Source: Streptomyces sp. NBC_01591
GTDB taxonomy: Bacteria > Actinomycetota > Actinomycetes > Streptomycetales > Streptomycetaceae
Reading direction: 5' to 3'
Length of the DNA stretch: 64,000 bases
NCBI RefSeq assembly: GCF_035918155.1
Contig: NZ_CP109327.1
Coordinates: forward strand, 1,922,001 to 1,986,000
Part shown: positions 46,049 through 60,202 of the stretch, piece after piece
How the letters are laid out: each line of letters starts with the position of its first letter
How positions within the stretch are numbered: the first letter of the stretch is position 1
Made by a program: the position numbers and the translations under genes
The notes under the pieces: model-generated
What the model was told of the DNA's origin: nothing
The model's input: the letters and a program-made list of their open reading frames with translations, nothing else
The model's database searches: none

Positions 46049-47338
46049 TCACCAGCGCGGGATCGTCGGTGTCTCCCACCCCGGCTCCGCCTTGCGCATC
46101 GCGGCCGCGTCGTCGCGCTCGCGCATCGTGCCGTCGTCGTCGAGCCAGCGACGGTGCAGTACGGCCAGGCGCTCGCGGTCGAGTTCGACGCCGAGCCCGG
46201 GTGCGTCGGAGACGGTGAGCCGGCCGTCCCGGAAGACATGGCGGGCGGTGATGACGTCCTCGGTCTGCCAGGGGTAGTGGCTGTCGCAGGCGTAGTCGAG
46301 GTTGGGAACGGTGGCCGCGACATGGGTCATCGCGGCGAGGCTGATGCCGAGGTGGGTGTTGGAGTGCATGGAGAGTCCGACGCCGAAGGTGCGGCAGATC
46401 CCGGCCAGTTCGCGGGTACGGTGCAGCCCGCCCCAGTAGTGGTGGTCGGAGAGGACCACCTGCACGGCGCCACGGGCGAAGGCCTCCGGCACCTCGGCGA
46501 GGGTGGTCACGCACATGTTGGTGGCCAGCGGTACGTCGGTGCCGGCGGCGACCGAGGCCATCAGGTCCGTGCCGCTCGCCGGGTCCTCCAGGTATTCGAG
46601 TACGTCCTTCAGCTGCTCGGCGACGTACAGCGAGGTCTCCACGGACCAGGCGCCGTTGGGGTCCAGGCGCAGCGGCTGCCCGGGGAACTCCTCGGCCAGG
46701 GCGCGGATCGCGGCGATCTCCTGGTCGGGTTCGAAAACGCCGCCCTTGAGCTTGAACGAGGCGAAGCCGTGCTCGCGGGTGAAGCGCCGGGCCTGGGCGA
46801 CGACGCCGGCCGGGTCGAGGGCGGCGCCCCAGTCGTCCCGTTCGCCGCCCTCGGGGTGGGCGGCCCAGCGGTAGAAGAGATAGGCGCTGTACTCGACGCT
46901 GTCGCGGACCTTCCCGCCGAGCAGGGCGTGCACGGGGAGGCCGAGGGACTTGCCCAGCGCGTCCAGGCAGGCGACCTCGAAGCCGGAGACGACGGAGAGC
47001 CGGAGCTTGCCGGCGGTCTGGACGCCGCGCAGTCCGCCCGCCTCGACCCGGTCGTCGGCGGCGCGTGAATCACCGCACACCTCATCGGCGAGAGCGAACA
47101 GGCCGTTCAGATCGCTGACCGGGCGTCCGGCGAGCGCGGTGGCGAGCGGCCGGGCGAGTTCGAGGTACTTGCCGTCCCCGTACGTCTCGCCGATGCCGGT
47201 GACACCGCCGCGTGTGACGACCTCCACGATGAGCCGCGGGGTGTAGGGCTGGTGTACGCCCTGGGTGTTGAGCAGCGGCGGGTCGGCTATCAGGATCGGG
47301 GTCAGCCGGACTTCGTCGATCAGCAGCTCTGTATTCAT
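46049..47338 (-). CDS. gudD: Glucarate dehydratase
   Basis: A 429-residue enolase-superfamily enzyme that dehydrates D-glucarate to 5-keto-4-deoxyglucarate. ASFKLKGG is the KxK base, DPNGAWS, LEYLEDP and ATNMCVT contain the Mg ligands, and MHSNTHLGISLAAMTH the catalytic His. The length and start MNTELLIDEVRLTPI fit. No other glucarate gene is adjacent. It is divergent from the phosphotransferase operon. Confidence 0.93.
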   Translation of the reverse strand: MNTELLIDEVRLTPILIADPPLLNTQGVHQPYTPRLIVEVVTRGGVTGIGETYGDGKYLELARPLATALAGRPVSDLNGLFALADEVCGDSRAADDRVEAGGLRGVQTAGKLRLSVVSGFEVACLDALGKSLGLPVHALLGGKVRDSVEYSAYLFYRWAAHPEGGERDDWGAALDPAGVVAQARRFTREHGFASFKLKGGVFEPDQEIAAIRALAEEFPGQPLRLDPNGAWSVETSLYVAEQLKDVLEYLEDPASGTDLMASVAAGTDVPLATNMCVTTLAEVPEAFARGAVQVVLSDHHYWGGLHRTRELAGICRTFGVGLSMHSNTHLGISLAAMTHVAATVPNLDYACDSHYPWQTEDVITARHVFRDGRLTVSDAPGLGVELDRERLAVLHRRWLDDDGTMRERDDAAAMRKAEPGWETPTIPRW

Positions 47339-47430: not shown

Positions 47431-47454
47431 AATGGATGCCGGGCGCGTACTGGA

Positions 47455-47477
47455 CGACATACCGACTGGTCGGCATG
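47455..47477. promoter_or_regulatory. Shared operator, copy 1
   Basis: CGACATACCGACTGGT (47455-47470) is identical to the complement of 58791-58806. Here it lies in a near-perfect palindrome, CATACCGAC-TG-GTCGGCATG (47458-47477), about 40 bases before the phosphotransferase start. Probable target of the TetR regulator at 55710-56303. Confidence 0.7.
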
Positions 47478-47517
47478 ATGGTCTCCGACCGTCTTTCACC
47501 CCCCGGAGGTGCACACG

Positions 47518-48540
47518 ATGAGCTCAGTCCACCCGCCAGGCCTCGACCTCGACCGGCTGCGCGGACACCTCGACCGCAAGCGGCCGGGCCTGGTGAGCGG
47601 ACCGCTCGAAGCCCGGATCGTCGAGGGCGGCCGGTCGAACCTGACGTACATCGTCACGGACGGAACCGGCCGCTGGGTCGTCCGCAGGCCCCCGCTGGGC
47701 CATGTGCTGGCCACCGCGCACGACATGAAGCGCGAGCACCGGGTGATCAGCGCCCTGCACCCGACGGCCGTTCCGGTGCCCGAACCGGTGCTGCTCTGCG
47801 AGGACGACTCGGTGATCGGGTCGCCGTTCTACGTCATGGAGTACGTCGAGGGCACCCCGTACCGCACCGCCGAACAGCTCGCCCCGCTGGGCGCCGAGCG
47901 CACCCGGGAGGCGGTCCTCGGGCTCGTCGACACCCTTGTCGCACTGCACGCCGTGGACCCCCAGTCCGTCGGGCTCGGCGACTTCGGGCGCCCCGAGGGC
48001 TTCCTCGACCGGCAGCTGCTCCGCTGGGGCAAGCAGCTGGACGCGTCGCGCAACCGCGATCTGCCCGGCATCGACGAACTGCACGCCGCGCTCGGGCGGG
48101 AGCTGCCCGTCTCACCCGCGCCCACCGTCGTGCACGGCGACTACCGGCTGGACAACGTCCTGATCGGCTCCGACGACCGGATCAAGGCCGTCCTCGACTG
48201 GGAGATGTCGACGCTCGGCGACCCGCTGACCGACCTCGGCCTGCTGGTGATGTACAGCTCCGATCTCGGCCTGGCCGATTCACCGGTCTCCACCACCAGC
48301 GGCGCGGCGGGCCACCCCTCCCCCGCCGAACTGATCGAGCGCTATGCCGCCCGCTCCGGCCGGGACACCTCCGCCATCTCCTGGTACACGGCGTTCGCCT
48401 GGTTCAAGCTCGCCGTGATCCTGGAGGGCATCCACTACCGCTACACGCTGGGCCAGACCGTCGGCGCAGGCTTCGACCGCATCGGCGACCTCGTCCCCGT
48501 CTTCATCGAGCACGGCCTCACCACCCTCCAGGAAGGCTGA
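47518..48540 (+). CDS. APH-fold phosphotransferase, ACAD10/11 or LvaA-like kinase
   Basis: A 340-residue aminoglycoside-phosphotransferase-fold kinase. VHGDYRLDNVLI is the catalytic loop and VLDWEMSTLGDPLTDLG the metal-binding motif; VRRPPLGHVLATAHDMKRE is the N-lobe typical of the group fused to acyl-CoA dehydrogenase in ACAD10/11. It is followed after 8 bases by an acyl-CoA dehydrogenase. In that family the kinase phosphorylates the 4-hydroxyl of 4-hydroxyacyl-CoA. ATG 47518 has GGAGGT at 7 bases. It is not expected to be an antibiotic-resistance gene. Confidence 0.88.
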   Translation: MSSVHPPGLDLDRLRGHLDRKRPGLVSGPLEARIVEGGRSNLTYIVTDGTGRWVVRRPPLGHVLATAHDMKREHRVISALHPTAVPVPEPVLLCEDDSVIGSPFYVMEYVEGTPYRTAEQLAPLGAERTREAVLGLVDTLVALHAVDPQSVGLGDFGRPEGFLDRQLLRWGKQLDASRNRDLPGIDELHAALGRELPVSPAPTVVHGDYRLDNVLIGSDDRIKAVLDWEMSTLGDPLTDLGLLVMYSSDLGLADSPVSTTSGAAGHPSPAELIERYAARSGRDTSAISWYTAFAWFKLAVILEGIHYRYTLGQTVGAGFDRIGDLVPVFIEHGLTTLQEG

Positions 48541-48548
48541 TCACCCCC

Positions 48549-49775
48549 ATGGACTTCGCATTCGACGCCCGCACCGAAGAGCTGCGCGGCAGGCTGCTCG
48601 CCTTCATGGACGAGCACGTGTACCCGGCCGAGAAGACCGCGGACGAGCAGCGCGCGCTGCTGGCCTCCCCGTGGGACACCCCGCGGATCGTCGAGGACCT
48701 GAAGGCCGAGGCGCGCAGGCAGGGCCTGTGGAACCTCTTCCTGCCCGATGCCGAGTACGGGGCCGGGCTGACCAACCTCCAGTACGCCCCGCTCGCCGAA
48801 ATCACCGGCCGTTCCCCGCAGTTGGCGCCGACCGCACTCAACTGCGCGGCCCCGGACACTGGCAACATGGAGGTGCTCTTCCAGTTCGCCACGGACGAGC
48901 AGAAGAAGCAGTGGCTGGAGCCGCTGCTCGCCGGTGAGATCCGCTCGGCGTTCGCGATGACGGAGCCCGGGGTCGCCTCGTCGGACGCGACGAACATCGA
49001 GACCCGGATCGTGCGCGACGGCGGTGACTACGTCATCAACGGCCGCAAGTGGTACATCTCCGGGGCGATGAACCCGGACTGCAAGATCTTCATCGTGATG
49101 GGCAAGACAGCGACTGCCGATGGCCCCGACGGCTCCGACATCCGCCGCCAGCAGTCGATGATCCTGGTCCCCCGCGACACCCCCGGCCTCGAAGTGCGCC
49201 GCGCCATGCAGGTGTACGGGTACGAGGACCACTACCACGGCGGTCACGCGGAAGTCGTCTTCACCGATGTGCGGGTGCCGGCCGAGAATCTGATCGGCGA
49301 GGAGGGCGGCGGCTTCGCCATCGCCCAGGCGCGGCTGGGACCGGGCCGGATCCACCACTGCATGCGGCTGATCGGCATGGCCGAGCGGGCCATCGAGCTG
49401 ATGTGCAGGCGGGCGGTGTCCCGTACGGCCTTCGGCAAGCCGCTCGCCCAGCAGGGCGTCGTGCAGAACTGGATCGCGGACGCGCGGGTCACGGTGGAGC
49501 AGCTGCGACTGCTGGTGCTGAAGACGGCGTGGCTGATGGACACGGTGGGCAACCGGGGCGCGCACACGGAGATCCAGGCCATCAAGATCGCCACCCCGCG
49601 CGCGGTGGTCGACATCCTCGACCAGGCGGTGCAGCTGCACGGCGCGGGCGGGGTGAGCCAGGACTTCCCGCTGGCCGAACTGTGGGCGTCGGCACGGACG
49701 TTGCGGCTGGCGGACGGCCCGGACGAGGTGCATCAGCGGTCGTTGGCCCGGCGGGAGATCAAGCGGTACGTGTAG
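48549..49775 (+). CDS. Acyl-CoA dehydrogenase, ACAD10/11 or LvaC-like
   Basis: A 408-residue flavoenzyme. AFAMTEPGVASSDATNIE binds FAD/substrate, GRKWYISGAMNPDCKIFIVM and HHCMRLIGMAERAIELM follow, and LHGAGGVSQDFPLAELWASA is the C-terminal helical part. It groups with dehydrogenases paired with APH-type kinases. In levulinate catabolism such a protein acts on the phosphorylated 4-hydroxyacyl-CoA to give, after loss of phosphate and rehydration, the 3-hydroxyacyl-CoA. Second gene of the operon under the shared operator. Confidence 0.9.
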   Translation: MDFAFDARTEELRGRLLAFMDEHVYPAEKTADEQRALLASPWDTPRIVEDLKAEARRQGLWNLFLPDAEYGAGLTNLQYAPLAEITGRSPQLAPTALNCAAPDTGNMEVLFQFATDEQKKQWLEPLLAGEIRSAFAMTEPGVASSDATNIETRIVRDGGDYVINGRKWYISGAMNPDCKIFIVMGKTATADGPDGSDIRRQQSMILVPRDTPGLEVRRAMQVYGYEDHYHGGHAEVVFTDVRVPAENLIGEEGGGFAIAQARLGPGRIHHCMRLIGMAERAIELMCRRAVSRTAFGKPLAQQGVVQNWIADARVTVEQLRLLVLKTAWLMDTVGNRGAHTEIQAIKIATPRAVVDILDQAVQLHGAGGVSQDFPLAELWASARTLRLADGPDEVHQRSLARREIKRYV

Positions 49776-49797
49776 GGCCGGACTCTGCGGACAGGCC

Positions 49798-52700
49798 CTA
49801 TTCCCCACCGGCCCTGATCCGGTCCAGTACATCCGTGTACAGGGTGCGCCGGTCGGGCCGGGCGCGGGCGGCGGCCTTGCGGAGGGCGGGGACCGCCGGC
49901 CCGCCCATCTCGACGAGCCCGTCGGCCGCCGTCTCGCGCACGACGGGATGCGGGTGCCCGAGCAGTCCCGTCACGGCGGGGACCGCGGGGTCCCAACCTG
50001 CCCGGGTGAGCGTACGGATGGCCATGCGCACCACGTCGGACCGGGGGTCGTCCAGCAGGAGCTCGGTGTGGCGCAGGTGGGTCGGCCGGCCGAGCATCAC
50101 CCGTGAGGTGCGGTGGGCGCGCAGGCGGACCTTGGACCGGGGATGCGTGAGCAACTCGCCCAGGAGGTCGAGGAGTTGCCGGTCCTTGTCCGGCTCCGGG
50201 CCGGTGTGCGTCTCGGCCAGTTCGGTGAGCGCCCGGCAGATCTGCTCCGGTGTGCCTGTTGCGGCCAGGTCCAGCAGTTCCCGCCGGGTCGGGCGCTGCC
50301 CGGTTCCGGCGGGTACCGCCGCGCCACGGTCACGGAGCGCTGCCAGAGCCGCCGCGTCCTGCCGCACGGCGTCCGGCCCGCGCAGTGGCCCCTCGACGAG
50401 CAGGAGCCGGTCCGCGAGTTCGTCGCGCCCTTCGGTACGCAGGCGTCGGCAGGTCCGCGTCAGTGCGGGGGTGCGCAGGAGCGGGCGGCCGACGAGCAGG
50501 TCCAGGAAGCCCCAGGCCCCGGCGGCGAGGCGGTTGTCCAGGGCCCCGGCCAGCGCGTCGGCGGGGTACGCGCGCAACGCGTCGGCGACCGCCGGGGCCA
50601 CGGCGGGCGGAGCGTGTTCCCACCACTCCAGCAGCAACGGGACCAGCCGTTCCAGTTCCCACGGGTCGAGTTGGGCGGCCGCTCGCGCCACCCTGTCGGG
50701 CCGGATGTCGTCGTCCCGGAGCTCCGTCTCGTCGAGAGCGCCCAGTGCGCGGGCCAGGTCGGCGCCGACGCGCAGGTCGACCCGGCCACGGAGGTACGCA
50801 CGCAGCACCGGCAGCCGGGCCTCCGGTTCGGGCCACCGCGCCAGCGCCAGGGCGGCGGTCTCCCTGCGGTCCGCGGCGGCCGACCTCAGCATCGCCAGCA
50901 GCCGCTCCCGCAGGGCCGCCGAACGGGGCTGGTCGAGGTCGTCGACGCGCACCCGTCGTGGTGACGACGGAGTCGGCGCGTGGGCGGTCTCGGCGATGGT
51001 CCAGGGCGGCGCGTCGATGGGCTGGAGCAGCGTCATCCAGTCGAGCAGTACGGCCCGGACCCCGGGGTCAGCACCCCGGTGGACCTCGATCAGGGCGGTC
51101 AGCCGGTCCCGCGAGGGGACCGCGCCGTCGTTCCGCCGGCGGAACTCCTCCAATGCGCCCGGTGTACGGACCGCATCGTCCAGCGCGGCCCGCCATGCCC
51201 GGGTCCCGGCCGACACGGGCACGGCGGCGGCCGTCTCCGGTACGGCGAAGGCCTCCCGCAGCACGGCGGTCTCGGCCTGCCAGGGGTCGGCGCCGAGCCG
51301 GGCGCCCGCGAGGGCCCGGTCGAGGTCGGCGCGGACCGGCACCGCACCGAGGCGGCGCAGCAGCGTCAGCACGGACCGGCTCGGCGTCGCGGGTGCGGGG
51401 CGCAGTGCCCGTACCGCGGCGACGGCGGCGGGCCTTTCGGTGGCCGTCAGCATCGGCGCGACCGCTTCGAGTACGGCGATCAGGTCGTGCCGGTCCCCGT
51501 CCCGGGCGTCGGCGAGCGCGTCCAGCAGGACCGGGGCGGACCGGGCGAACACCGTGAGCTCCGCGGCGTCCCGGGGCTCGGCGCAGATCCGCAGCGCGAA
51601 CCGCACCACCTTGATCCGGAGCGCCTTGTTGCGGAGCGCCTTGTTCGGCACCGCCTTGTTCCGGAGCTCCCCGCCCCGGAGCGCCGGCCGGGAGGCGGCG
51701 AGCCGGAGCCAGTCGGCCAGCATCGGCCGCAGCTGTGCCGTCCGGTCGGGGCCGAGCGGCTCGTCCCGTTCGACGACGCGCAGCGCGACCGCCGGGTTCC
51801 AGCCCCCGGCCACCAGCGCCCTGATGTCGCGGTCCGTCTCGCCGGCCACCGATGACGGCTGCTCGGCGGCCGATGCGGTGATCCCGTGCCTGGCCATGGC
51901 CGCCGCCAGGTCCTTCACGGTGCCGGAGGCCAGTCCGATCCGGCGGGACGCCACCAGCGAGAGCAGCGTGACCGCCACCGGTGACGCCTGGTCGTCCAGC
52001 GCGAGGGCCGAGCGTGCGGTGAGGGTGCCGTGGAGGCCCTCCAGCAGCAGCTCGCGGGTGCCGTCGTCCCGGCTGTGCTCGGCGGCGGCGACGATCGTGG
52101 CCGCGTAGGCGTCGCCGAGGACTGCGTACAGGGCCTCGACGAGGCTGTCGCGCAGACCGGGGTTGCCGTCGTGTCCGAGTCGGGAGAGGAGCTTCGGTAG
52201 CGCCGCCGGTGTGCCCGCGCGGACCAGCACCTCGGCCGCCGTCTTCCTGATGTTCATGTTCGGATGGTCGAGGCATGCGGAGATCGCGGCGCTCGCCCAG
52301 TGGGCGCGGGCGTGGCCGAGGGCGAGCAGCGCCTGCCGGACGGTCTGGATGTCCTGCGCGGTGGTCAGCGCGATCAGCGTCGCCGACAGGGCCCTGGCGT
52401 CCTCCCCCGAGGCGTCACGGGCGAGCAGGGCGATGACGTGCTTGCGTACGTGCCGGTCGCGGTGGCGCAGCAGCCGGTGCACCCGCGCACGGGTGCCCGT
52501 CCAGGGGGCCCTGAGCAGCAGTTCGAGCAGGATCGTCTGCTCACCGTCGGACACCCCTGGCCGGTCCAGCAGGTCCAGCGCCATCGTCGCGACGAGTGCG
52601 TGCCCCGCCTCCCGCGCGTCCGCGGTACCGAGCAGACAGACCGGCCGGATCGCACCCCGCTCGTGGAGCCGGCGGCCCAGGGCGCTCACCGCGTCCAGGA

Positions 52701-54540
52701 CCTCCTGCGGCACCACGGGCTCACCGGCCGGCTTTCCGTGTTCCCCGGTCCGGGTGGCCGCTCCCGGCTCCCCCGACGCGGCCTGCTCCGCCACGATGCG
52801 CAGCAGCAGGTCGGCGATGGCCGGGAAGGTGCCGGCGTTGCCGTGGGCCGCCAGCCGGCACAGCGCCGCCACCGGCTCGTCCGGGTCCAGGTGGGAGCGC
52901 AACAGGGCCAGTTCCCGCTCGTCCGGGCCGCCGAGGTCGGCCGCGATGCGCGGCGGCAGGTCGACGGGGTCGAGCCGTACGAGGAGCTCGTGGCGGAGCG
53001 CCGGATCGCGGTTCAGCAGCCACAGCAGTTCGAGGGCGCGGTTCCGTACGGGGCGCAGATGGGGCGCCGTCTCGTCCGTGGTGAGGCCCAGCCCTTCGCG
53101 CAGGGCCAGTACCGTCCGGTCCCCGCCGATCGCCTCCAGCGTGTCCAGGGCCGCGGCCGGCGCCGAGGGCAGCAGGGCGATCACGGCCTCTTCGGCGTCC
53201 TCGTGGCGCAGTTCGCGGATCGCGTCGAGGAACGGCCCGGGTGCGGGGGCGGAGGGAAGCATGTGTGCGATCGCGTCCCCGATCGGGAGCTCGCCGGCCC
53301 CCTGCCCGGCCAGGGCGACCAGCAGGGCGAGCCGTCGCGGCCAGCCGGGATCGTCGGCCGGCGCCTCCGTCAGTACGCGGAGCGTCTCCTTCCGGGAGGT
53401 GAAGAGGATGGTCGCCACGTCGCGGGGCGGAATCGAGTGGTCGGACAGGGCCAGGCCGATGACGGCGGGGACGTCCGGATCGTCCGGGAAGTGCCCGCGC
53501 CGGTGGAGACCGCGCAGGCAGGTCACGACCGGACCGCCGAACAGCAGGGGATCGCGTGCGGCGACGGCCGTCAGCTCACCGATGTCGTCGCGGTCCGCCA
53601 GGTCGCCGAGCAGTTCCATCCCACGTCGGCGAGGACCCGGCGGCAGTCCGGGGTCGTCGACGACCTGGCGCAGCAGCTCCCGGTGGCCGTGGCGCGCGGC
53701 GGCCGCGAGGGCGGCGTCGGCCACCGCGGGCCACTCCCGCACCGCACCTTCCACCGGTTCCCCGGCCGGCTCCCGCGCCGCATCCTCCGCCCGTGCCCCG
53801 GCCGACTCCCGCACCGGACCGGCGGCGAGGAACGGGGCGAGGAGGCCGGGCGGCAGCGGATCCGTCGCCGCCCACGGTTCGGCGAGTTCGCCCAGCGCGC
53901 CGGCGACCACCGGGGCGCTGTCGGCTCCCAGCAGGCCGATCAGGCCCTCCCGGACCAGCGCCGGGGCCAGCAGCCCGGCGTGCAGCCCCTGCCGGGCCAG
54001 CCGTACCGCCTCGGCCTGGAGCACCGGGTCGCCGCTGCCCGCCAGCTCGTCCACGAGCCGCGCCGGCCGGTGCGTAGCGGTGATACTCGTCTCCCGCACG
54101 GCCTGGTACAGGAGTTCATCCGGGGCCTCGTCGCGGAGCACCGTGGGGTCGTGGTGCACATCGGCGCGCAGCCAGGCGATCCGTACCCGCACCGGCAGTG
54201 GCCCGGCCGTGCGCCAAGCCGGCCGGAAACGGCCCCTCAGGTGGTGGCCGAGTTCCTCGTACAGCCCGGCCAGAAGGAGATCCGCCTCCGGCAGTCCCGT
54301 CAGCGATCGGGGCAGCAGCCCGGCGAGTTCGGCCGACTCCGCATCGTCGGACGGGCGGCACTCGGCGACACGCTCGGTGAGCAGGACCAGCCCCAGATGA
54401 CGCTGCCCGGGATCCTCGTGCCGGATCAGCCGCCGCAGGACCTCCGGTGTGCAGTCCCGCGCGTCCGGGAGCCCGCCCGGCAGGGCTGCTCCGGCCCGGC
54501 CCGCGGCGTCGTGGAACTGTTCGTCCGCCGGTGTCTGCAT
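49798..54540 (-). CDS. Giant HEAT-repeat-like protein (1580 residues)
   Basis: A very long, wholly alpha-helical soluble protein without signal peptide, membrane helix or recognisable catalytic domain. Repeating helix pairs of HEAT/PBS-lyase type are clear at HRDRHVRKHVIALLARDASG, HPNMNIRKTAAEVLVRAGTP, HPRSKVRLRAHRTSRVMLG, DDPRSDVVRMAIRTLTRAGW and HPHPVVRETAADGLVEMGGP. It is probably a scaffold. Residues about 958-977 are four 5-residue repeats (xNKAL-type) from a 15-base tandem repeat. Start ATG 54540 (MQTPADEQFHDAAG). The stop lies 22 bases from the convergent acyl-CoA dehydrogenase. Function unknown. Confidence 0.85.
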   Translation of the reverse strand: MQTPADEQFHDAAGRAGAALPGGLPDARDCTPEVLRRLIRHEDPGQRHLGLVLLTERVAECRPSDDAESAELAGLLPRSLTGLPEADLLLAGLYEELGHHLRGRFRPAWRTAGPLPVRVRIAWLRADVHHDPTVLRDEAPDELLYQAVRETSITATHRPARLVDELAGSGDPVLQAEAVRLARQGLHAGLLAPALVREGLIGLLGADSAPVVAGALGELAEPWAATDPLPPGLLAPFLAAGPVRESAGARAEDAAREPAGEPVEGAVREWPAVADAALAAAARHGHRELLRQVVDDPGLPPGPRRRGMELLGDLADRDDIGELTAVAARDPLLFGGPVVTCLRGLHRRGHFPDDPDVPAVIGLALSDHSIPPRDVATILFTSRKETLRVLTEAPADDPGWPRRLALLVALAGQGAGELPIGDAIAHMLPSAPAPGPFLDAIRELRHEDAEEAVIALLPSAPAAALDTLEAIGGDRTVLALREGLGLTTDETAPHLRPVRNRALELLWLLNRDPALRHELLVRLDPVDLPPRIAADLGGPDERELALLRSHLDPDEPVAALCRLAAHGNAGTFPAIADLLLRIVAEQAASGEPGAATRTGEHGKPAGEPVVPQEVLDAVSALGRRLHERGAIRPVCLLGTADAREAGHALVATMALDLLDRPGVSDGEQTILLELLLRAPWTGTRARVHRLLRHRDRHVRKHVIALLARDASGEDARALSATLIALTTAQDIQTVRQALLALGHARAHWASAAISACLDHPNMNIRKTAAEVLVRAGTPAALPKLLSRLGHDGNPGLRDSLVEALYAVLGDAYAATIVAAAEHSRDDGTRELLLEGLHGTLTARSALALDDQASPVAVTLLSLVASRRIGLASGTVKDLAAAMARHGITASAAEQPSSVAGETDRDIRALVAGGWNPAVALRVVERDEPLGPDRTAQLRPMLADWLRLAASRPALRGGELRNKAVPNKALRNKALRIKVVRFALRICAEPRDAAELTVFARSAPVLLDALADARDGDRHDLIAVLEAVAPMLTATERPAAVAAVRALRPAPATPSRSVLTLLRRLGAVPVRADLDRALAGARLGADPWQAETAVLREAFAVPETAAAVPVSAGTRAWRAALDDAVRTPGALEEFRRRNDGAVPSRDRLTALIEVHRGADPGVRAVLLDWMTLLQPIDAPPWTIAETAHAPTPSSPRRVRVDDLDQPRSAALRERLLAMLRSAAADRRETAALALARWPEPEARLPVLRAYLRGRVDLRVGADLARALGALDETELRDDDIRPDRVARAAAQLDPWELERLVPLLLEWWEHAPPAVAPAVADALRAYPADALAGALDNRLAAGAWGFLDLLVGRPLLRTPALTRTCRRLRTEGRDELADRLLLVEGPLRGPDAVRQDAAALAALRDRGAAVPAGTGQRPTRRELLDLAATGTPEQICRALTELAETHTGPEPDKDRQLLDLLGELLTHPRSKVRLRAHRTSRVMLGRPTHLRHTELLLDDPRSDVVRMAIRTLTRAGWDPAVPAVTGLLGHPHPVVRETAADGLVEMGGPAVPALRKAAARARPDRRTLYTDVLDRIRAGGE
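51608..51667 (-). repeat. In-frame 15-base tandem repeat within the HEAT-repeat gene
   Basis: Four 15-base units of GCCTTGTTGCGGAGC type (51608-51622, 51623-51637, 51638-51652, 51653-51667). Units 2 and 4 differ at one position. They encode short basic pentapeptides (NKALR, NKAVP) in a linker between helices. Copy number can change without frameshift. Confidence 0.8.
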
Positions 54541-54600
54541 CGTCGGATGCTAACCGCGCACGCTCCGGCCCCACCAACGGGTTTGGCCCCGTCCTCGCTC

Positions 54601-54765
54601 TCAGTAGCCGCCGAACCCCACGTGGTCCGCCAGCGCCAGGTCGCGGACGAAGGCCCTCACACGCAGCAGGCACCGGGCGGCGAAGCGTACGGCCGGCGCG
54701 TGGTGCGGTCCGTACGCCGCGGTCCAGAGTGCGGGGACATGCGTGGACGGCTGGATGTGAGTCAT
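54601..54765 (-). CDS. Possible small protein
   Basis: A 54-codon frame starting MTHIQPSTHVPALWTAAYGP and ending RDLALADHVGFGGY, divergent from the LysR gene and upstream of the HEAT-repeat gene. No domain recognised. The placement next to a divergent LysR gene fits a regulated small gene, but coding is not proven. Confidence 0.35.
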   Translation of the reverse strand: MTHIQPSTHVPALWTAAYGPHHAPAVRFAARCLLRVRAFVRDLALADHVGFGGY

Positions 54766-54839
54766 ACATCCAGCTTCGGCCCGCATCCGTGATCGGTCCA
54801 ACAGATGGTTCAGCTGGCTGCGATCGATAACGTGGATGG

Positions 54840-55771
54840 ATGGAGCTACGCCAACTCCGCCACTTCATGGCGGTGGTCACGCACGGCGGTTTCACCGCCG
54901 CCGCCCGTGCCGAGCTGATCGTGCAGTCCGCGCTGAGCACCTCCGTGCGCAACCTCGAACGGGAGCTGGGGGCCGAGCTGTTCGACCGGACCGGCCGGCG
55001 GGTGGTCCTCACCGAGGCGGGCCGGGCACTGCTGCCGTCGGCCCGGTCGGTGCTCGCCGGGACCGAGGCGGCACGGGAGGCGGTGGCGGCCGTGGCGGGG
55101 CTGGTGACCGGCCGGGTCAGGGTCGGCACGATCCAGACGCTGACCTGCGTGGATCTGGCGGCCGAGCTGGCCGCGTACCACCGGCCGGGGTGCAGATCTC
55201 GCTGCGCGAGGCGACGACGCCGGAGCTGGTCACGGGACTGCGGGCCGGTGAGCTGGATCTCGCCTACCTCGCGCCGGACTCCACCGAACTGCCCGACGGC
55301 ATCGTCGGGTTCGCGACCTGGCACGAGGACCTGGTGCTGATCACCGCGCCGGGCCATCGGCTGGCGACCGCCGGGCGCACCCTGATCAAGGACCTCGCCG
55401 ACGAGCCGTTCGTGGACTTCCGCGCGGGCACCGGTCTGGAGACCGCGGTGCGGAGGCTGGCCGCGCACTGCGGGCTGGAGCGCCGGATCACCTGTGACGT
55501 CACGCAGATCCGGCTGCTCGTCGATCTCGTGCGGGCGGGGATCGGCGTGGCGATCGTCCCGCGGCGGATCGGCGAGGACGCGGGGCTGCCGTGTGTGAGC
55601 ATCCGCCAGCCGGAGCCCGGCCGGACCGTGGTCCTCGCCGGGCGGGCACCCCGGCCCCGCAATCCGGCGGCGGAGGCGCTCCTGGACCGTCTGACAGATC
55701 CGGCAGGCTTCAGGGACGCAGCGCGCGCAGCAGCAGGTCGGCCAGGTGGTCGGCGACCTGCTGCTGGCTGA
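54840..55771 (+). pseudogene. LysR-family regulator with a one-base frameshift
   Basis: The first frame (54840 to about 55190) encodes a good LysR HTH: MELRQLRHFMAVVTHGGFTA, then IVQSALSTSVRNLERELGAE. The second, one base earlier in phase, continues VQISLREATTPELVTGLRAG through the ligand domain to 55771. They join at GGGG 55187-55190: one more G would give continuous HRPGVQISLREA. It is either a true inactivating deletion or a sequencing error in a G run. The intact protein would be about 310 residues and overlaps the convergent TetR gene by 62 bases. Confidence 0.8.
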
Positions 55772-56303
55772 GCGGGCCGTCGGGCCGGTACCAGGTGGAC
55801 AGGTGGTGGACCGAACCGAAGTGGTAGTCGACGATCAGGTCGGCGGGGGTGGCGGTGGAGAACACGCCGCTCCGCTGGCCCTCCTCCACCAGGGCCCGGA
55901 ACCGCTCGTGGTAGCGGCGCCGTTCCACCCGGACCTGCTTGTTCTTCTCCGGGCTCAGGTGGTGCATGGACCGGAAGAAGATCGAGGCGTCGTCGAGGTT
56001 CTCGATGGTCGTGACGACCACGTCCGCGGCGGCGTCGCGCAGCCGCTGTTCGACGGGGGCGTCGGCGTCGGCGAAGGCGTCGAGGCGCTCCTGCTGGAGG
56101 CGGAGCACCCGGGCGTAGACCTCCTGGAGGAGGTCCTCCTTGGAGCCGAAGTAGTGGTAGAGCGCACCCTTGGTGACGCCCGCCGCTTCGACGATCTCCT
56201 GGACCGAGGTGCGGTCGTAGCCCTGCTCGGCGAAGAGCCGGGTGGCGGCGGCCAGCAGCCGCTGAGGAACGGGAGCCGTGTCCCCGTCCGTCGCCTTGGC
56301 CAT
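55710..56303 (-). CDS. TetR-family regulator of acyl-CoA metabolism
   Basis: A 197-residue repressor with HTH LLAAATRLFAEQGYDRTSVQ then EIVEAAGVTKGALYHYFGSK, and a C-terminal helical domain of the type found near fatty acid and branched-chain acid degradation genes. ATG 56303 has AAGGAAGG 8 bases upstream; an alternative ATG at 56336 overlaps the ligase stop (ATGA). As the last gene of the SDR-ligase-TetR operon it would be under the shared operator at 58791 and regulate itself. Confidence 0.9.
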   Translation of the reverse strand: MAKATDGDTAPVPQRLLAAATRLFAEQGYDRTSVQEIVEAAGVTKGALYHYFGSKEDLLQEVYARVLRLQQERLDAFADADAPVEQRLRDAAADVVVTTIENLDDASIFFRSMHHLSPEKNKQVRVERRRYHERFRALVEEGQRSGVFSTATPADLIVDYHFGSVHHLSTWYRPDGPLSQQQVADHLADLLLRALRP

Positions 56304-56332
56304 TGCCGCCACCTTCCTTCCGCGTGATTCGG

Positions 56333-57991
56333 TCATCGAGGGGAACACAGTTCCCGCCTGAGGATCTTCCCACTCGCCGTCTTCGGGAGTTCGGTCAGGA
56401 TCTCGACCTCGCGCGGGTACTTGTACGCGGCAAGCCGTTCCTTGCAGTACGCACTGAGCTCTTCCGGTTCGGCCGAGGCGCCGGGCCGGAGGCTGACGTA
56501 GGCGCGGACGGTCTCGCCGCGGTAGGTGTCGGGGACACCGACGACGGCCGCCTCCCGGACCGCCGGGTGGGTGTACAGGACGTCCTCCACCTCACGCGGC
56601 CAGACCTTGAAGCCGGAGGCGTTGATCATGTCCTTCTTGCGGTCGACGACATAGAGCCAGCCCGCGCTGTCCATGAATCCGATGTCGCCGGTACGCAGCT
56701 CGCCGTCCGGGAAGGCGGCGGCGGTGGCCTCGGGCAGCCGCCAGTAGCCGGAGACGACCTGCGGTCCGCAGACCGCGATCTCGCCCTGCTCGCCGAAGGG
56801 CACCTCCTCGCCGTTCTCGTCCAGGATCCTGACCACCGTGTCGGGGCCGGGGACGCCGACGGACAGGGTCCCGGAGACCGGGTCGACGGGGGCTTCGCGC
56901 TCCGGCGGTACGGAGGCGCAGGGGGCGGTGCACTCGGTGAGGCCGTAGCCGTTGCGGATGTACGGGCCGAAGCCCGCCCGGAACTTCTCGACCAGTGCGG
57001 GCGGCAGCGGTGCGCCGCCCGAGGAGATCACCCGGAAGGAGGCGAAGTGCTCGGGAGTGACGTCCGGGTGGGCGGCGAGCGCCATGAAGGCGGTGGACGG
57101 GCCCACGGTGTAGGCGGGGCGGTGTTCGGCGAAGGCTTCGAGGACGACGCCCGGGTGGAAGCGGTACGCGAGGACGAGGGTGCCCGCGTTGGTGAGACAG
57201 GCGGCCAGCTGGCACACCATGCCGGTGATGTGGAAGAGCGGGGCGAGCGCGAAGTAGGAGGAGCCCTCGGCCACGGGGTGCCCGGTCCGCTGACGCTCGG
57301 CGTTGATCATGATGTTGCCGTGGGAGTTCATGGCGCCCTTGGGCGTGCCGCTGGTCCCGGAGGTGTAGCTGATCAGCGCCACGTCGGCGGCGGCCGGTTC
57401 GCGCCCCTCGGGTGCCTTGACGCCCTGCCGGGCGACGGCGACCAGGTCGTCGGTGTCCGCGGGCACGGGGAGCCGCTCGAAGCCGAGTACCCGTTCGTCG
57501 TTCTGTGTCTGGAGGTCGAGCTCACTGGTGGTGAGAGCGATCCGTACCGTCGGGGCGCCGGCCGCGGTGTCCCGCAGATACGCCTCCCAGGCCCGGTCCG
57601 CGCAGATCAGCGCGGTGACCTCGGCATCCTTCAGTACGTGGCCGACCTCGCCGGACTTGTACATCGGATTGAGCGGAACGACCGTGGCGCCGGCCTTCCA
57701 GGCGCCGAGCAGCGCGAGCACGAACTGCGGGGTGTTCTGCAGCATGATCGCGACCCGGTCGCCGCGCTCCAGGCCCCGGGCGGCGAGATGGCCGGCCACC
57801 GAGTCGGAGAGCTCGTCGGTCTCGCGGTAGCTCAGGCGTCCGTCGAAGTAGGCGAGCGCCGGGTGCCCGGGGCTGCGGGCGGCGGAGTCCCGGAAGGCGT
57901 GGACGAGGGTGGCGGCGGGGCTGACAGGGGCCCGCTGGGCCTCGCTGAGCAGCGGGATCCAGGGCTTGGCCGCGTAGATCGACTCGGTCAT
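56333..57991 (-). CDS. Acyl-CoA ligase (AMP-forming)
   Basis: A 552-residue ANL-superfamily enzyme that activates a carboxylic acid to its CoA thioester. P-loop YTSGTSGTPKGAMNSH, motif NGYGLTECTAP, hinge and adenylate motif GELRTGDIGFMD...VVDRKKDMI, and C-terminal catalytic Lys in PKTASGKILRREL. Chain-length specificity cannot be read. Its ATG overlaps the SDR stop and its stop overlaps a possible TetR start, so the three genes are tightly coupled. Confidence 0.92.
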   Translation of the reverse strand: MTESIYAAKPWIPLLSEAQRAPVSPAATLVHAFRDSAARSPGHPALAYFDGRLSYRETDELSDSVAGHLAARGLERGDRVAIMLQNTPQFVLALLGAWKAGATVVPLNPMYKSGEVGHVLKDAEVTALICADRAWEAYLRDTAAGAPTVRIALTTSELDLQTQNDERVLGFERLPVPADTDDLVAVARQGVKAPEGREPAAADVALISYTSGTSGTPKGAMNSHGNIMINAERQRTGHPVAEGSSYFALAPLFHITGMVCQLAACLTNAGTLVLAYRFHPGVVLEAFAEHRPAYTVGPSTAFMALAAHPDVTPEHFASFRVISSGGAPLPPALVEKFRAGFGPYIRNGYGLTECTAPCASVPPEREAPVDPVSGTLSVGVPGPDTVVRILDENGEEVPFGEQGEIAVCGPQVVSGYWRLPEATAAAFPDGELRTGDIGFMDSAGWLYVVDRKKDMINASGFKVWPREVEDVLYTHPAVREAAVVGVPDTYRGETVRAYVSLRPGASAEPEELSAYCKERLAAYKYPREVEILTELPKTASGKILRRELCSPR

Positions 57992-58752
57992 GCGCCGGTC
58001 TCCTCCCACTTCCGCTGAAGGTGGTTCATACCGCCGAGCCAGTGGTCGGTGTCCTTGGCGCGGGCCCGGTAGTACCCGGCGACCTCGGGGTGCGGCAGGA
58101 CCAGGAAGCGGTCCTCGGCCATGGCGTCGAGGAGCGCGTCGGCGACCGCCGCGGGCTCGATGGCGCCGGGGGCGAGGACGAGCTCCCCGGCCGATCCGGC
58201 GGCGGTGAGCATGTCCGTACGCACGCCCTGCGGGCAGATCGCGTGGACCTTGATGCCGCGGTGGCGGTAGGTGAGCGAGAGCCATTCGGCGAAGGCGACG
58301 ACACCGTGCTTGGTGACGCTGTACGGCGCGGCGCCGATCATCGTCAGCAGTCCGGCGGCGGAGGCGGTCGAGACGAAGCGTCCGCTGCCGCGCTCCAGCC
58401 ACTGGGGCAGCAGCGCCTTGGCCGCACGGACGTGGGCCATCACGTTGACGTCCCAGGCGGCGGCCCAGACCTCCTCGTCCGCGAAGACGTCGCCGGGCGA
58501 GGCGAGGCCGGCGTTGGCGCAGTAGATGTCGACGGTGCCGTCGAGCGCGTCCCTGGCCGCGTCCACGATCCGCGAGGCGTCACCGGCGACGGCAATGCCG
58601 CCGATCTCCTCGGCCAGCGGCTTGATCCTCGCCTCGTCGAGGTCGTTGACCACGACCCGCGCGCCCTCCGCGGCGAACCGGCGGGCCAGTGCGGCTCCGA
58701 TGCCGCCTCCAGCGCCTGTGACCACCACGCCCGCGCCCTGCACCGTACTCAT
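57988..58752 (-). CDS. Short-chain dehydrogenase/reductase
   Basis: A 254-residue SDR. TGAGGGIGAALARRFA is the cofactor motif, CANAGLASPG takes the NNAG position, STASAAGLLTMIGAAPYSVT then KHG gives S-Y-K. First gene of the operon with the ligase and TetR. In a levulinate-like pathway it would interconvert 4-oxo- and 4-hydroxyacyl-CoA; in a general fatty acid pathway it could be a 3-hydroxyacyl dehydrogenase. ATG 58752 with GAGGCGGGA upstream. Confidence 0.88.
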   Translation of the reverse strand: MSTVQGAGVVVTGAGGGIGAALARRFAAEGARVVVNDLDEARIKPLAEEIGGIAVAGDASRIVDAARDALDGTVDIYCANAGLASPGDVFADEEVWAAAWDVNVMAHVRAAKALLPQWLERGSGRFVSTASAAGLLTMIGAAPYSVTKHGVVAFAEWLSLTYRHRGIKVHAICPQGVRTDMLTAAGSAGELVLAPGAIEPAAVADALLDAMAEDRFLVLPHPEVAGYYRARAKDTDHWLGGMNHLQRKWEETGA

Positions 58753-58790
58753 CGGTCCCGCCTCTCTCAGCCGACTGCACCGGCAGACTA

Positions 58791-58806
58791 ACCAGTCGGT
58801 ATGTCG
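58791..58806. promoter_or_regulatory. Shared operator, copy 2
   Basis: ACCAGTCGGTATGTCG; its complement CGACATACCGACTGGT is 16/16 identical to 47455-47470. It lies about 40 bases before the SDR start, the same distance as copy 1 from the phosphotransferase start. The palindrome is weaker here (6 of 9 positions in the 9-base arms). Confidence 0.7.
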
Positions 58807-58904: not shown

Positions 58905-58940
58905 ATGACAGAGGTCGCGATCATGGAGGTAGCCGAATGA
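58905..58940 (+). other. Possible 11-codon leader ORF
   Basis: Encodes MTEVAIMEVAE and its TGA overlaps the ATG of the NamZ-like gene (ATGA). It contains the RBS of that gene. Coding not proven. Confidence 0.25.
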
Positions 58941-60202
58941 GCCTGTCCAGACGTGGTTTGCTGGCCGCCGGTGGTGCGGTGGGTGCCCTCGCGGCGACGG
59001 CCGCCGGGACCGGGGCAGCGACCGCCGCCCCCGCTCCGGGCAAGGGGCACGGCCGAGTCCGCACCGGTTTCGACCGGCTGGCGGCGGACGGCTACGCGCT
59101 GCTGAAGGGCGAGAAGGTCGGGGTCGTCACCAACCCGACCGGGATCACCTCCGATGTGCGCCACATCGTCGATGTGATGCACCCGGACGAGCGGGTGGAC
59201 CTGATCGCCGTCTTCGGGCCCGAGCACGGTTTCCGCGGCACCGCACAGGCGGGCGGCTCGGAAGGACGGTACGACGACCCGGCGACCGGACTCCCGGTCT
59301 ACGACACGTACTTGAAGAGCGGGCAGCCGCTCGCCGATGTCTTCACCGCGTCCGGCGTGGACACGGTCGTCTTCGACATCCAGGACGCGGGTGCCCGCTT
59401 CTACACGTACATCTGGACGCTGTACGACTGCATGGAGGCGGCGGCTCTCGCAGGGAAGCGGTTCGTCGTCCTGGACCGGCCGAACCCGGTGACCGGGCGG
59501 GCGGCGCTCGGCCCGGTGCTCGATCCGGCGTTCGGTACGTTCGTGGGCCGCCGGGAGATCGCGCAGGCGCACGGCATGACGGTCACCGAGCTGGCGCTGC
59601 TCTTCAACGCCCGGTTCCTGGCCGAGCGGCCGGTGGACCTGCGCATCGTGAAGATGTCGGGGTGGAAGCGGTCGGACTTCTTCGACTCGACCGGGCTGCC
59701 GTGGGTGCCGCCGAGCCCCAACATGCCGACGCCCGACACGGCACTGGTCTACTCGGGGACCTGTCTGTTCGAGGGCACGAACCTCTCCGAGGGGCGCGGT
59801 ACGACCCGGCCGTTCGAACTGCTCGGAGCGGAGGGCATCGACCACCGCTGGGCGGCGGCCGCGAACGCGCTCGACCTGCCCGGGGTCGCGTTCCGCGAGG
59901 CGTACTTCGCGCCGACGTTCTCCAAGTTCCAGGGCAAGACGGTCGGCGGTGTGCAACTGCACGTCCAGGACCGCGAGGTCTTCGATCCGGTACGCACGGG
60001 GATCGCGCTGCTGGTGACGGCGAAGCGGACGTGGAGCGGGTTCGCCTGGCGCTCGGACAACTGGATCGACAAGCTCACCGGCAACACCCGGGTCCGCACG
60101 ATGATCGACGCGGGGGCGGACACGGACGAGGTGGTGGGGGCCTGGGCGGAGGATCTCGCCGCGTTCCGGGCCGTGCGGAAGCGGTATCTCCAGTACCGGT
60201 GA
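58937..60202 (+). CDS. Exo-beta-N-acetylmuramidase NamZ-like (DUF1343), secreted
   Basis: A 421-residue exported enzyme. The N-terminus SRRGLLAAGGAVGALAATAA is a Tat-like signal (RR followed by a hydrophobic stretch, ending near ATAAPA). The DUF1343/GH171 core has GVVTNPTGI, FGPEHGFRG, DIQDAGARFYTYIWT and NPVTGRAALGPVLD. Family members remove terminal N-acetylmuramic acid from peptidoglycan fragments, which suits recycling of the organism's own wall during hyphal growth. GGAGGT precedes the ATG. Confidence 0.9.
   Translation: MSLSRRGLLAAGGAVGALAATAAGTGAATAAPAPGKGHGRVRTGFDRLAADGYALLKGEKVGVVTNPTGITSDVRHIVDVMHPDERVDLIAVFGPEHGFRGTAQAGGSEGRYDDPATGLPVYDTYLKSGQPLADVFTASGVDTVVFDIQDAGARFYTYIWTLYDCMEAAALAGKRFVVLDRPNPVTGRAALGPVLDPAFGTFVGRREIAQAHGMTVTELALLFNARFLAERPVDLRIVKMSGWKRSDFFDSTGLPWVPPSPNMPTPDTALVYSGTCLFEGTNLSEGRGTTRPFELLGAEGIDHRWAAAANALDLPGVAFREAYFAPTFSKFQGKTVGGVQLHVQDREVFDPVRTGIALLVTAKRTWSGFAWRSDNWIDKLTGNTRVRTMIDAGADTDEVVGAWAEDLAAFRAVRKRYLQYR

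Follow-up and report, generated by a model that had tools for sequence, protein, structure and literature searches.

A shared TetR-type operator links a kinase/acyl-CoA dehydrogenase operon with an SDR/ligase/TetR operon in a putative PfmR-type regulon of Streptomyces

In Streptomyces sp. NBC_01591 (assembly GCF_035918155.1), the same 16-bp sequence occurs twice, about 11 kb apart, in front of two operons; one encodes an APH-type kinase and an acyl-CoA dehydrogenase (ACAD), and the other encodes a short-chain dehydrogenase/reductase (SDR), an acyl-CoA ligase, and a TetR protein. Why should two separate gene groups share a promoter sequence, and what would a regulon of this composition do? We analyzed the 64,000-nucleotide stretch carrying both operons (positions 1,922,001 to 1,986,000 of contig NZ_CP109327.1, forward strand; hereafter the window, whose own numbering is used below) together with the complete genome, related genomes, and solved structures. 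The results make it very probable that the two operons form a single regulon under a PfmR-type TetR repressor and encode a kinase/ACAD pathway for 4-hydroxyacyl-CoA. By analogy with the mammalian lipid pathway, the gene groups together look like a system, widespread in the genus, for stripping unusual fatty acids of a hydroxyl group by phosphorylation and elimination.

The 16-mer CGACATACCGACTGGT was found at 47455–47470 (plus strand) and 58791–58806 (minus strand), and these are the only two exact copies in the genome (10,251,772 bases in three contigs), whereas approximately 0.002 exact copies per genome are expected from base composition. A scan of the whole window at up to three mismatches detected no further copies, and the genome contains one near-copy with one mismatch and two with two mismatches; the one-mismatch copy lies approximately 80 bases 5′ of an open reading frame of 240 amino acids. 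The ATG of the kinase gene (47518; an alternative GTG is at 47509) begins 47 bases past the end of the first 16-mer, and the ATG of the SDR gene (58752) begins 38 bases past the end of the second. The first-pass annotation had described identical 16-mers at these two places, about 40 bases before the first gene of each operon, and the genome scan bears this out, with each exact copy standing just before one operon. Each 16-mer contributes the left portion of an imperfect 20-bp palindrome of the TetR type, which reads CATACCGAC-TG-GTCGGCATG in front of the kinase gene and CATACCGAC-TG-GTTAGTCTG in front of the SDR gene. The predicted TetR/PfmR-type operators are located at 47458–47477 on the plus strand for the kinase operon (CATACCGACTGGTCGGCATG, with the core CATACCGACYRGTCGG) and at 58784–58803 on the minus strand for the SDR operon (CATACCGACTGGTTAGTCTG, with TAGTCT in its right half). 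When the genome was scanned with a degenerate 20-mer built from both sites, using the reversed pattern as a control, the SDR site ranked first (0 mismatches to the two-site consensus) and the kinase site second (1 mismatch), followed by one more place at two mismatches. Because the places with up to three mismatches (24) matched the number for the reversed pattern (25), the regulon in this genome appears to consist of the two sites; a wider regulon was considered and rejected, as the 20-mer rose above background only at these two.

Pfam searches confirmed the gene content that had been read from the open reading frames. The kinase operon consists of a gene for an APH-fold small-molecule kinase of the LvaA or ACAD11 kinase-domain type (47518–48540, plus strand; Pfam APH, 5.5e-58) and, after an intergenic gap of 8 bases, a gene for an ACAD of the ACAD10/11–LvaC type (48549–49775, plus strand). 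On the minus strand, the SDR gene is the first of its operon (57988–58752; Pfam adh_short, 2.5e-37) and is followed by the genes for the AMP-binding acyl-CoA ligase (56333–57991; Pfam AMP-binding, 2.6e-91) and the predicted TetR repressor (55710–56336), with both pairs of neighbors coupled by ATGA stop/start overlaps.

To what extent do the two operons and their operators belong together in the genus? Searches of 150 genomes of the same genus gave a TetR match in 144 and an APH kinase match in 143. Fisher p values for their co-occurrence were 2.5e-5 for all hits and 1.5e-8 at the ortholog level (a table from which three genomes with paralogue-level or weak APH hits, including G043, were excluded), and both are optimistic because kin genomes are non-independent. 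Synteny was assessed with 141 of the 143 APH-positive genomes, the rows of two being absent. Four of the 144 TetR genomes had no usable APH row and five had the genes on different contigs, leaving 135 pairs on one contig; 132 of these were convergent, all 132 less than 10 kb apart, and the gap from kinase to TetR was below 1.5 kb, little more than the ACAD gene, in 79. Both operator sites were also present in the three genomes with nonconvergent pairs (G060, G088, and G138). The two operons are thus usually tail-to-tail neighbors, and the 7-kb gap in this genome is probably made up of inserted genes.

For the promoter comparison, a random draw took 100 of the 129 eligible clusters (G000, G041, and G050 were left out), of which the first 60 were retrieved and aligned with the window; L084 and L112 had no scorable SDR. 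The core CATACCGACYRGTCGG was present in 61/61 kinase promoters and the SDR-type site in 59/59 scorable SDR promoters, 58 of them exact and one a variant. By column, both operator sites were nearly invariant, but most of the flanking DNA was not. When the letters of these upstream pieces were shuffled, no shuffle attained the score of the kinase site (13 of 14); for the SDR site, whose score (11 of 14) is reduced by its asymmetric right half, approximately 0.65 of 59 pieces per set attained it. A set of 80 named loci found through TetR alignment, whose strains may overlap the genome sample, was also scored by counting a site anywhere in the locus, and the exact pattern was present in 74 of the 75 loci with an APH match and in 72 of the 79 with an SDR match. 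The misses were by a single base (SDR sites of L192, L210, L225, and L231 and the APH site of L210), by 3 bases (L184), or by 4 bases (L253), and L255 starts too near a contig edge. The closest named relative by TetR was S. atratus (99%). Operator conservation and synteny thus support the original proposal of one regulon composed of two operons.

The same alignments revealed promoter-like elements. At the kinase operon, conserved CTGGAC (−35-like) and CATNAT (−10-like) blocks are spaced by 17 to 18 nucleotides (47450–47479, plus strand), and the operator sits in the spacer and extends into the −10-like element; by column, CTGGAC was conserved in at least 60 of 61 kinase promoters and CATNAT in 55. 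The TAGTCT in the right half of the SDR operator is invariant and has the form of a TANNNT −10-like element, which would explain the asymmetry of this half-site. We infer from this conservation that promoter elements are present at both operators.

Some genomes of the genus depart from the common arrangement. The TetR-only genomes G035, G051, and G094 carry an orphan TetR gene with no SDR, kinase, or ACAD matches nearby, and no operator site was found at up to two mismatches in the 9 kb fetched around each (L172, L174, and L175), an absence that favors the regulon. The Streptomyces cathayae plasmid NZ_CP121683.1 (L167) bears a copy of the cluster beside IS3-family transposase genes; the ligase is without a match there, the TetR alignment is split into two segments, and the operator sites deviate by one and two bases; this may be a second copy in decay.

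We then considered which protein binds the operators. Among solved structures, PDB 3vpr was the best match of the TetR from the SDR operon (E value of 2.5e-24), and TTHB023 (PfmR) of Thermus thermophilus HB8 matches 3vpr over its whole length. PfmR in turn matched the operon TetR best in this genome (1.3e-24), and the two proteins are mutual best matches within the sets searched, namely, solved structures and this genome. Their recognition regions are nearly the same (TKGALYHYF in the operon TetR and SKAALYHHF in PfmR). The binding site of PfmR given in the portion of PMC7022988 available to us is TACCGACCGNTNGGTN, and we located TACCGACCGGTCGGTG and TACCGACCGGTTGGTT upstream of TTHB023 in the Thermus plasmid record. 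The sites upstream of the Streptomyces operons are of the same TACCGAC-N2-palindrome type, which assigns them to the PfmR family of operators. According to the same portion of PMC7022988, the PfmR operon encodes the TetR, an ACAD, a reductase, MaoC, an acyl-CoA ligase-related protein, gluconate 5-dehydrogenase, a further ACAD, a phosphotransferase, and two hypothetical proteins; gluconate 5-dehydrogenase is an SDR in the plasmid record. The PfmR-deficient strain is reported there with increases of log2 1.86 for TTHB014 (phosphotransferase) and 1.68 for TTHB015 (ACAD), with an adjusted p of approximately 0.02. The TetR of the SDR operon is therefore the likely binder of both operators, as the first-pass annotation had supposed.

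Relatives of the operon TetR outside the core set were also examined in five further clusters with TetR proteins at least 48% identical. In four of the five, a palindrome with up to two mismatches lies before the APH or ACAD gene: before APH in G437 (TetR 68%), before ACAD in Nonomuraea (64%), before APH as a perfect 16-bp palindrome in G440 (57–59%), and before an APH-ACAD-ligase group in G367 (L151; 49%), which belongs to another actinobacterial family. G367 has additional palindromes at 2387 and 6192, before genes for a permease of the sugar-transporter family and an ABC ATPase of the branched-chain amino-acid type. These extra sites suggest a larger regulon with uptake genes in that genome and hint at uptake of a small acid.

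To what chemistry would this regulator be coupled? The kinase matched PDB 9o56 (4e-70) and ACAD11 (8v3v; 4e-51) among solved structures. HGD(Y/F)RLDN (HGDYRLDN in the window) and DWE were present in the kinases of all 60 clusters, and these HGD....N and DWE motifs place the protein with the ACAD10/11–LvaA/LvaC kinases, closeness having been measured to the ACAD11 kinase. Aminoglycoside resistance, which the APH fold might bring to mind, was rejected: curated resistance models gave 35 bits against a cutoff of 205, in contrast to the strong matches to ACAD11 and to 9o56, which is itself named an aminoglycoside phosphotransferase. The best solved match of the ACAD was ACAD11 (8v3u; 3.7e-139), with RLGPGRIHHCMR and ADGPDEVH identical; the D position of ADGP varies between the two solved chains of ACAD11. 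In ACAD11, R626, H634, R637, and D753 are the residues that allow 4-phosphoacyl-CoA to be handled, according to the part of PMC12440821 available, and their counterparts in the window ACAD are R262, H270, R273, and D389. The ACAD thus has an arginine at −8, HCMR, and a catalytic aspartate instead of glutamate. All 60 clusters have this R/HCMR/D set. Seventeen further loci were scored, and in 16 of them the best ACAD has it too (TTHB015 of Thermus among them), the exception being L170, with HVMR. By contrast, it is absent from six paralogous ACADs of these loci and of this genome; four of the six could be aligned over the whole set (TLAAGE, AVAAGE, GVAARE, and RHCPTT) and two partly. An ACAD gene lies beside the kinase gene in 60/60 Streptomyces clusters, in 9 of 15 further loci, and in Thermus. 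Because the conserved residues matter in a characterized enzyme, a kinase-then-elimination route acting on 4-hydroxyacyl-CoA is well supported at the level of sequence, in agreement with the earlier suggestion of a split ACAD10/11 (LvaA/LvaC-like) pair that phosphorylates a hydroxyl and then eliminates it.

The proposed system would work as follows. Without substrate, a TetR dimer would sit on the palindromes overlapping both promoters and block transcription of the kinase and ACAD genes, and it would also repress its own SDR-ligase-TetR operon (autoregulation). After uptake of a 4-hydroxy (or 4-oxo) carboxylic acid, this ligase or some other would convert it to the CoA ester, and an acyl-CoA of the pathway would release the repressor from its operators. 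The SDR might interconvert 4-oxo- and 4-hydroxyacyl-CoA or catalyze a nearby oxidoreduction. The APH kinase would then phosphorylate the 4-hydroxyl, and the ACAD, with its conserved arginines and histidine near FAD and its catalytic aspartate, would eliminate phosphate to give a 2-enoyl-CoA for β-oxidation. The operators, their promoter-like position, their conservation across the genus, the gene linkage, the relatedness to PfmR, and the ACAD11 active-site residues were all observed in sequence; binding, repression, the inducer, the reactions, and the substrate are what we infer from them.

Several observations weigh against this proposal. A strict sigma-70 scan (9 of 12) called no promoter at either operator, and for this reason the promoter elements are proposed from conservation; the scan did call a minus-strand pair at 58949–58920, approximately 117 bases farther upstream than the SDR operator. 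For the TTHB022 ACAD, the reductase, MaoC, the ligase, and the SDR, the change in the PfmR-deficient strain missed an adjusted p of 0.05 (PMC7022988, in the portion available). A second ACAD-APH-SDR-TetR cluster in G098 (L162, 3673–8199; TetR 54%) gave no PfmR-type palindrome in the scan. In G043 (L173, 6926–7687), the catalytic loop is missing from the kinase alignment, yet the ACAD, the SDR, the TetR, and both sites are kept, and in 6 of the 15 further loci there is no ACAD match near the kinase. The SDR, a classical one, matches many SDR families without a specific assignment, and the ligase is an optional member, with no match in 9 of the 60 clusters and a match in 54 of the 80 named loci. 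Finally, a second PfmR-like TetR lies approximately 11 kb from the operon TetR, beside another ACAD, and PfmR matched it nearly as well (6.4e-23); PfmR relatedness alone therefore singles out no binder.

Two of these points also touch on side observations. The minus-strand pair upstream of the SDR operator (58920–58949; TGGACA, 18, CATGAT) resembles the blocks flanking the kinase operator. The L162 cluster may use another operator.

The alternative closest to the proposal accepts the regulon and takes the pathway to be specifically levulinate catabolism, as in the Pseudomonas putida lva operon, where LvaE, LvaD, LvaA, and LvaC belong to the same four enzyme classes and a 4-phosphoacyl-CoA route has been proposed (PMC6692424, in the portion available). 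We consider this unlikely. The kinase and the ACAD are indeed of the LvaA/LvaC type, and this part of the first-pass annotation, which had listed ligase, SDR, kinase, and ACAD together and offered lva as the model, has held up. The ligase, on the other hand, is no fixed part of the set. It had no match even at the S. atratus locus, and activation can thus probably be supplied elsewhere, as described in the available text for a P. putida lvaE deletion. The regulator in Pseudomonas is the sigma54-dependent LvaR according to the available text, instead of the operon-encoded TetR of Streptomyces (no genome-wide search for LvaR was made), and because the operon-encoded regulator is of a different class, the Streptomyces system is not the Pseudomonas lva operon. 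In Pseudomonas there is also a 12-kDa LvaB, and levulinate is the substrate (PMC6692424, same portion). No LvaB-type gene fits into the 8-base gap between the kinase and ACAD genes, and Pfam DUF6285, the family of a small gene adjoining the Thermus kinase, was found in none of 21 genomes (this genome and 20 relatives), the equation of DUF6285 with LvaB being tentative. This point is blunted by P. citronellolis, for which the text available likewise reports no lvaB homologue in the region analyzed. Among the literature matches listed (titles and beginnings of abstracts), there was no paper on levulinate catabolism in Streptomyces. As for the SDR, relatives lie directly 5′ of the kinase gene in L154 (54%) and in a Deinococcus locus (L169; 43%).

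The closer regulatory precedent is the PfmR regulon of Thermus, which the first-pass annotation had not mentioned. As in Streptomyces, it combines a ligase-related protein, SDR-type reductases, ACADs, and a phosphotransferase (PMC7022988, in the portion available), and its ACAD TTHB015 has the R/HCMR/D residues. It differs in its layout: ten genes form a single operon that also contains MaoC, PaaI, and a second ACAD lacking HCMR, after which come DUF6285 and histidine-phosphatase genes. Its AMP-binding protein has only 314 amino acids, its TetR is approximately 35% identical, and the accessible text connects the regulon with phenylacetate and fatty acids and makes no assignment to 4-hydroxy acids (PMC7022988). 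The enzymatic precedent extends to mammalian ACAD10 and ACAD11, which contain the same kinase and ACAD pair and in which R626, H634–R637, and D753 are conserved (PMC12440821 and PMC11342911, available in part; PDB 8v3u, 8v3v, and 2wbi). In the mammalian proteins, the kinase and the ACAD are fused in one polypeptide. To our knowledge, they do not share an operon with a repressor, SDR, or ligase of their own. Judged by sequence, the Streptomyces system appears to work like the ACAD10/11–LvaA/LvaC module and to be regulated like the PfmR regulon.

That assignment of PfmR raises a further alternative, in which the operator regulon is the same but the enzymes perform ordinary β-oxidation or phenylacetate-related chemistry while the APH kinase acts elsewhere. 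PfmR was named for phenylacetate and fatty-acid metabolism in the available description, and the SDR and the ligase are generic enough for such a role. The ACAD itself makes this quite improbable: it has the HCMR and aspartate set that none of the four fully aligned paralogous ACADs possesses, its gene accompanies the kinase gene as described above in Streptomyces, in further loci, and in Thermus, and recombinant ACAD10/11 is reported, in the text available, to show no activity on the ordinary acyl-CoAs tested.

It is very unlikely that the shared operator is bound mainly by another TetR, such as the second PfmR-like TetR (C1:1988811–1989350, approximately 2.8 kb beyond the end of the window), even though PfmR matches this protein almost equally. 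No PfmR-type palindrome was found at up to three mismatches in the 10 kb around its gene. The operon TetR, by contrast, is coupled to the SDR and ligase genes by the ATGA overlaps, its presence tracks that of the kinase, and its relatives come with the palindrome in four of the five further clusters. Finally, we reject the idea that the shared 16-mer is a product of chance or a repeat artifact, for which we found no point in favor, given the expected number of exact copies and the conservation at both promoters across the genus.

How far does the proposed regulon reach beyond Streptomyces? In a phylum sample of 296 genomes, 10 had the TetR at an E value of 1e-35 (nine of these belong to this genus), and 118 had the kinase at 1e-40. 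Outside the genus, the TetR was thus found in 1/287 genomes versus 109/287 for the kinase, and within the same order outside the genus, the TetR was found in 2/15 genomes. Two of the 15 further loci, L151 and L165 (of which L165 belongs to the same genus), have an operator near the kinase; in L164, a palindrome with two mismatches falls within the kinase gene itself, and none was found in the other 12, among which L162 alone has a TetR relative. These distributions indicate that the enzyme module is far wider than the PfmR-type regulator, and most relatives must control the module otherwise.

A broader reading can be offered tentatively and is on balance doubtful. In it, PfmR-type TetRs, the TACCGAC-type operator, and the kinase-ACAD module would be one unit in Deinococcota and Actinomycetota, with a regulator that senses a pathway acyl-CoA; the Thermus PfmR operon would be a 4-hydroxy-acid regulon, and the near-core Streptomyces unit would handle 4-hydroxy acids released from γ-lactones, possibly including butanolide signals made by the genus itself. 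What counts against this reading is the disparity between TetR (1/287) and kinase (109/287) outside the genus. The kinase cluster on a plasmid of Deinococcus sp. NW-56 (L169) contains genes for an SMP-30/gluconolactonase-family protein and a histidine phosphatase, a content that would fit lactone-derived hydroxy acids.

Other features of the region and the genome were recorded. Between the operons lie a gene for a 1580-amino acid HEAT-repeat protein (49798–54540, minus strand), whose Pfam matches were HEAT models only and which matched no PADLOC model, and a LysR-type regulator gene (54840–55768, plus strand) with an apparent frame change near 55190; its DNA-binding and substrate-binding halves are in different frames, through either an assembly error or a real change. 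A gene of the mandelate racemase/muconate-lactonizing group of the enolase superfamily (46049–47338, minus strand) is divergent from the kinase operon. Elsewhere, a perfect 16-bp palindrome, TACCGACCGGTCGGTA, is located at 7742020–7742035 of contig C1, with a helix-turn-helix gene (PF21863) and a gene of the AraC type as neighbors. Contigs C1 and C2 carry the same motif variants and TetR fragments at matching distances (approximately 148 kb and 163 kb from their starts), as if two linear replicons shared long terminal repeats.

Among the matches listed in our literature search (titles and beginnings of abstracts), no paper dealt with the Streptomyces cluster, a result that does not establish absence in print because most subscription journals lay outside the search. 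The main text of PMC3511530, on TetR targets in Streptomyces, contains neither of the strings TACCGAC and GTCGGTA. The proposed regulon would give Streptomyces a compact system of two promoters, one repressor, and defined enzymes, and because matches to the TetR and the kinase occur in 144 and 143, respectively, of 150 sampled genomes of the genus, a near-core catabolic pathway and its switch can be tested together. It would link a bacterial TetR family, that of PfmR, to the recently solved ACAD10/11 chemistry, and it suggests that the PfmR operon of Thermus also contains a 4-hydroxy-acid module. If the repressor does respond to 4-hydroxyacyl-CoA or to acids derived from γ-lactones, the system would provide an inducible promoter and a biosensor for compounds of this kind.

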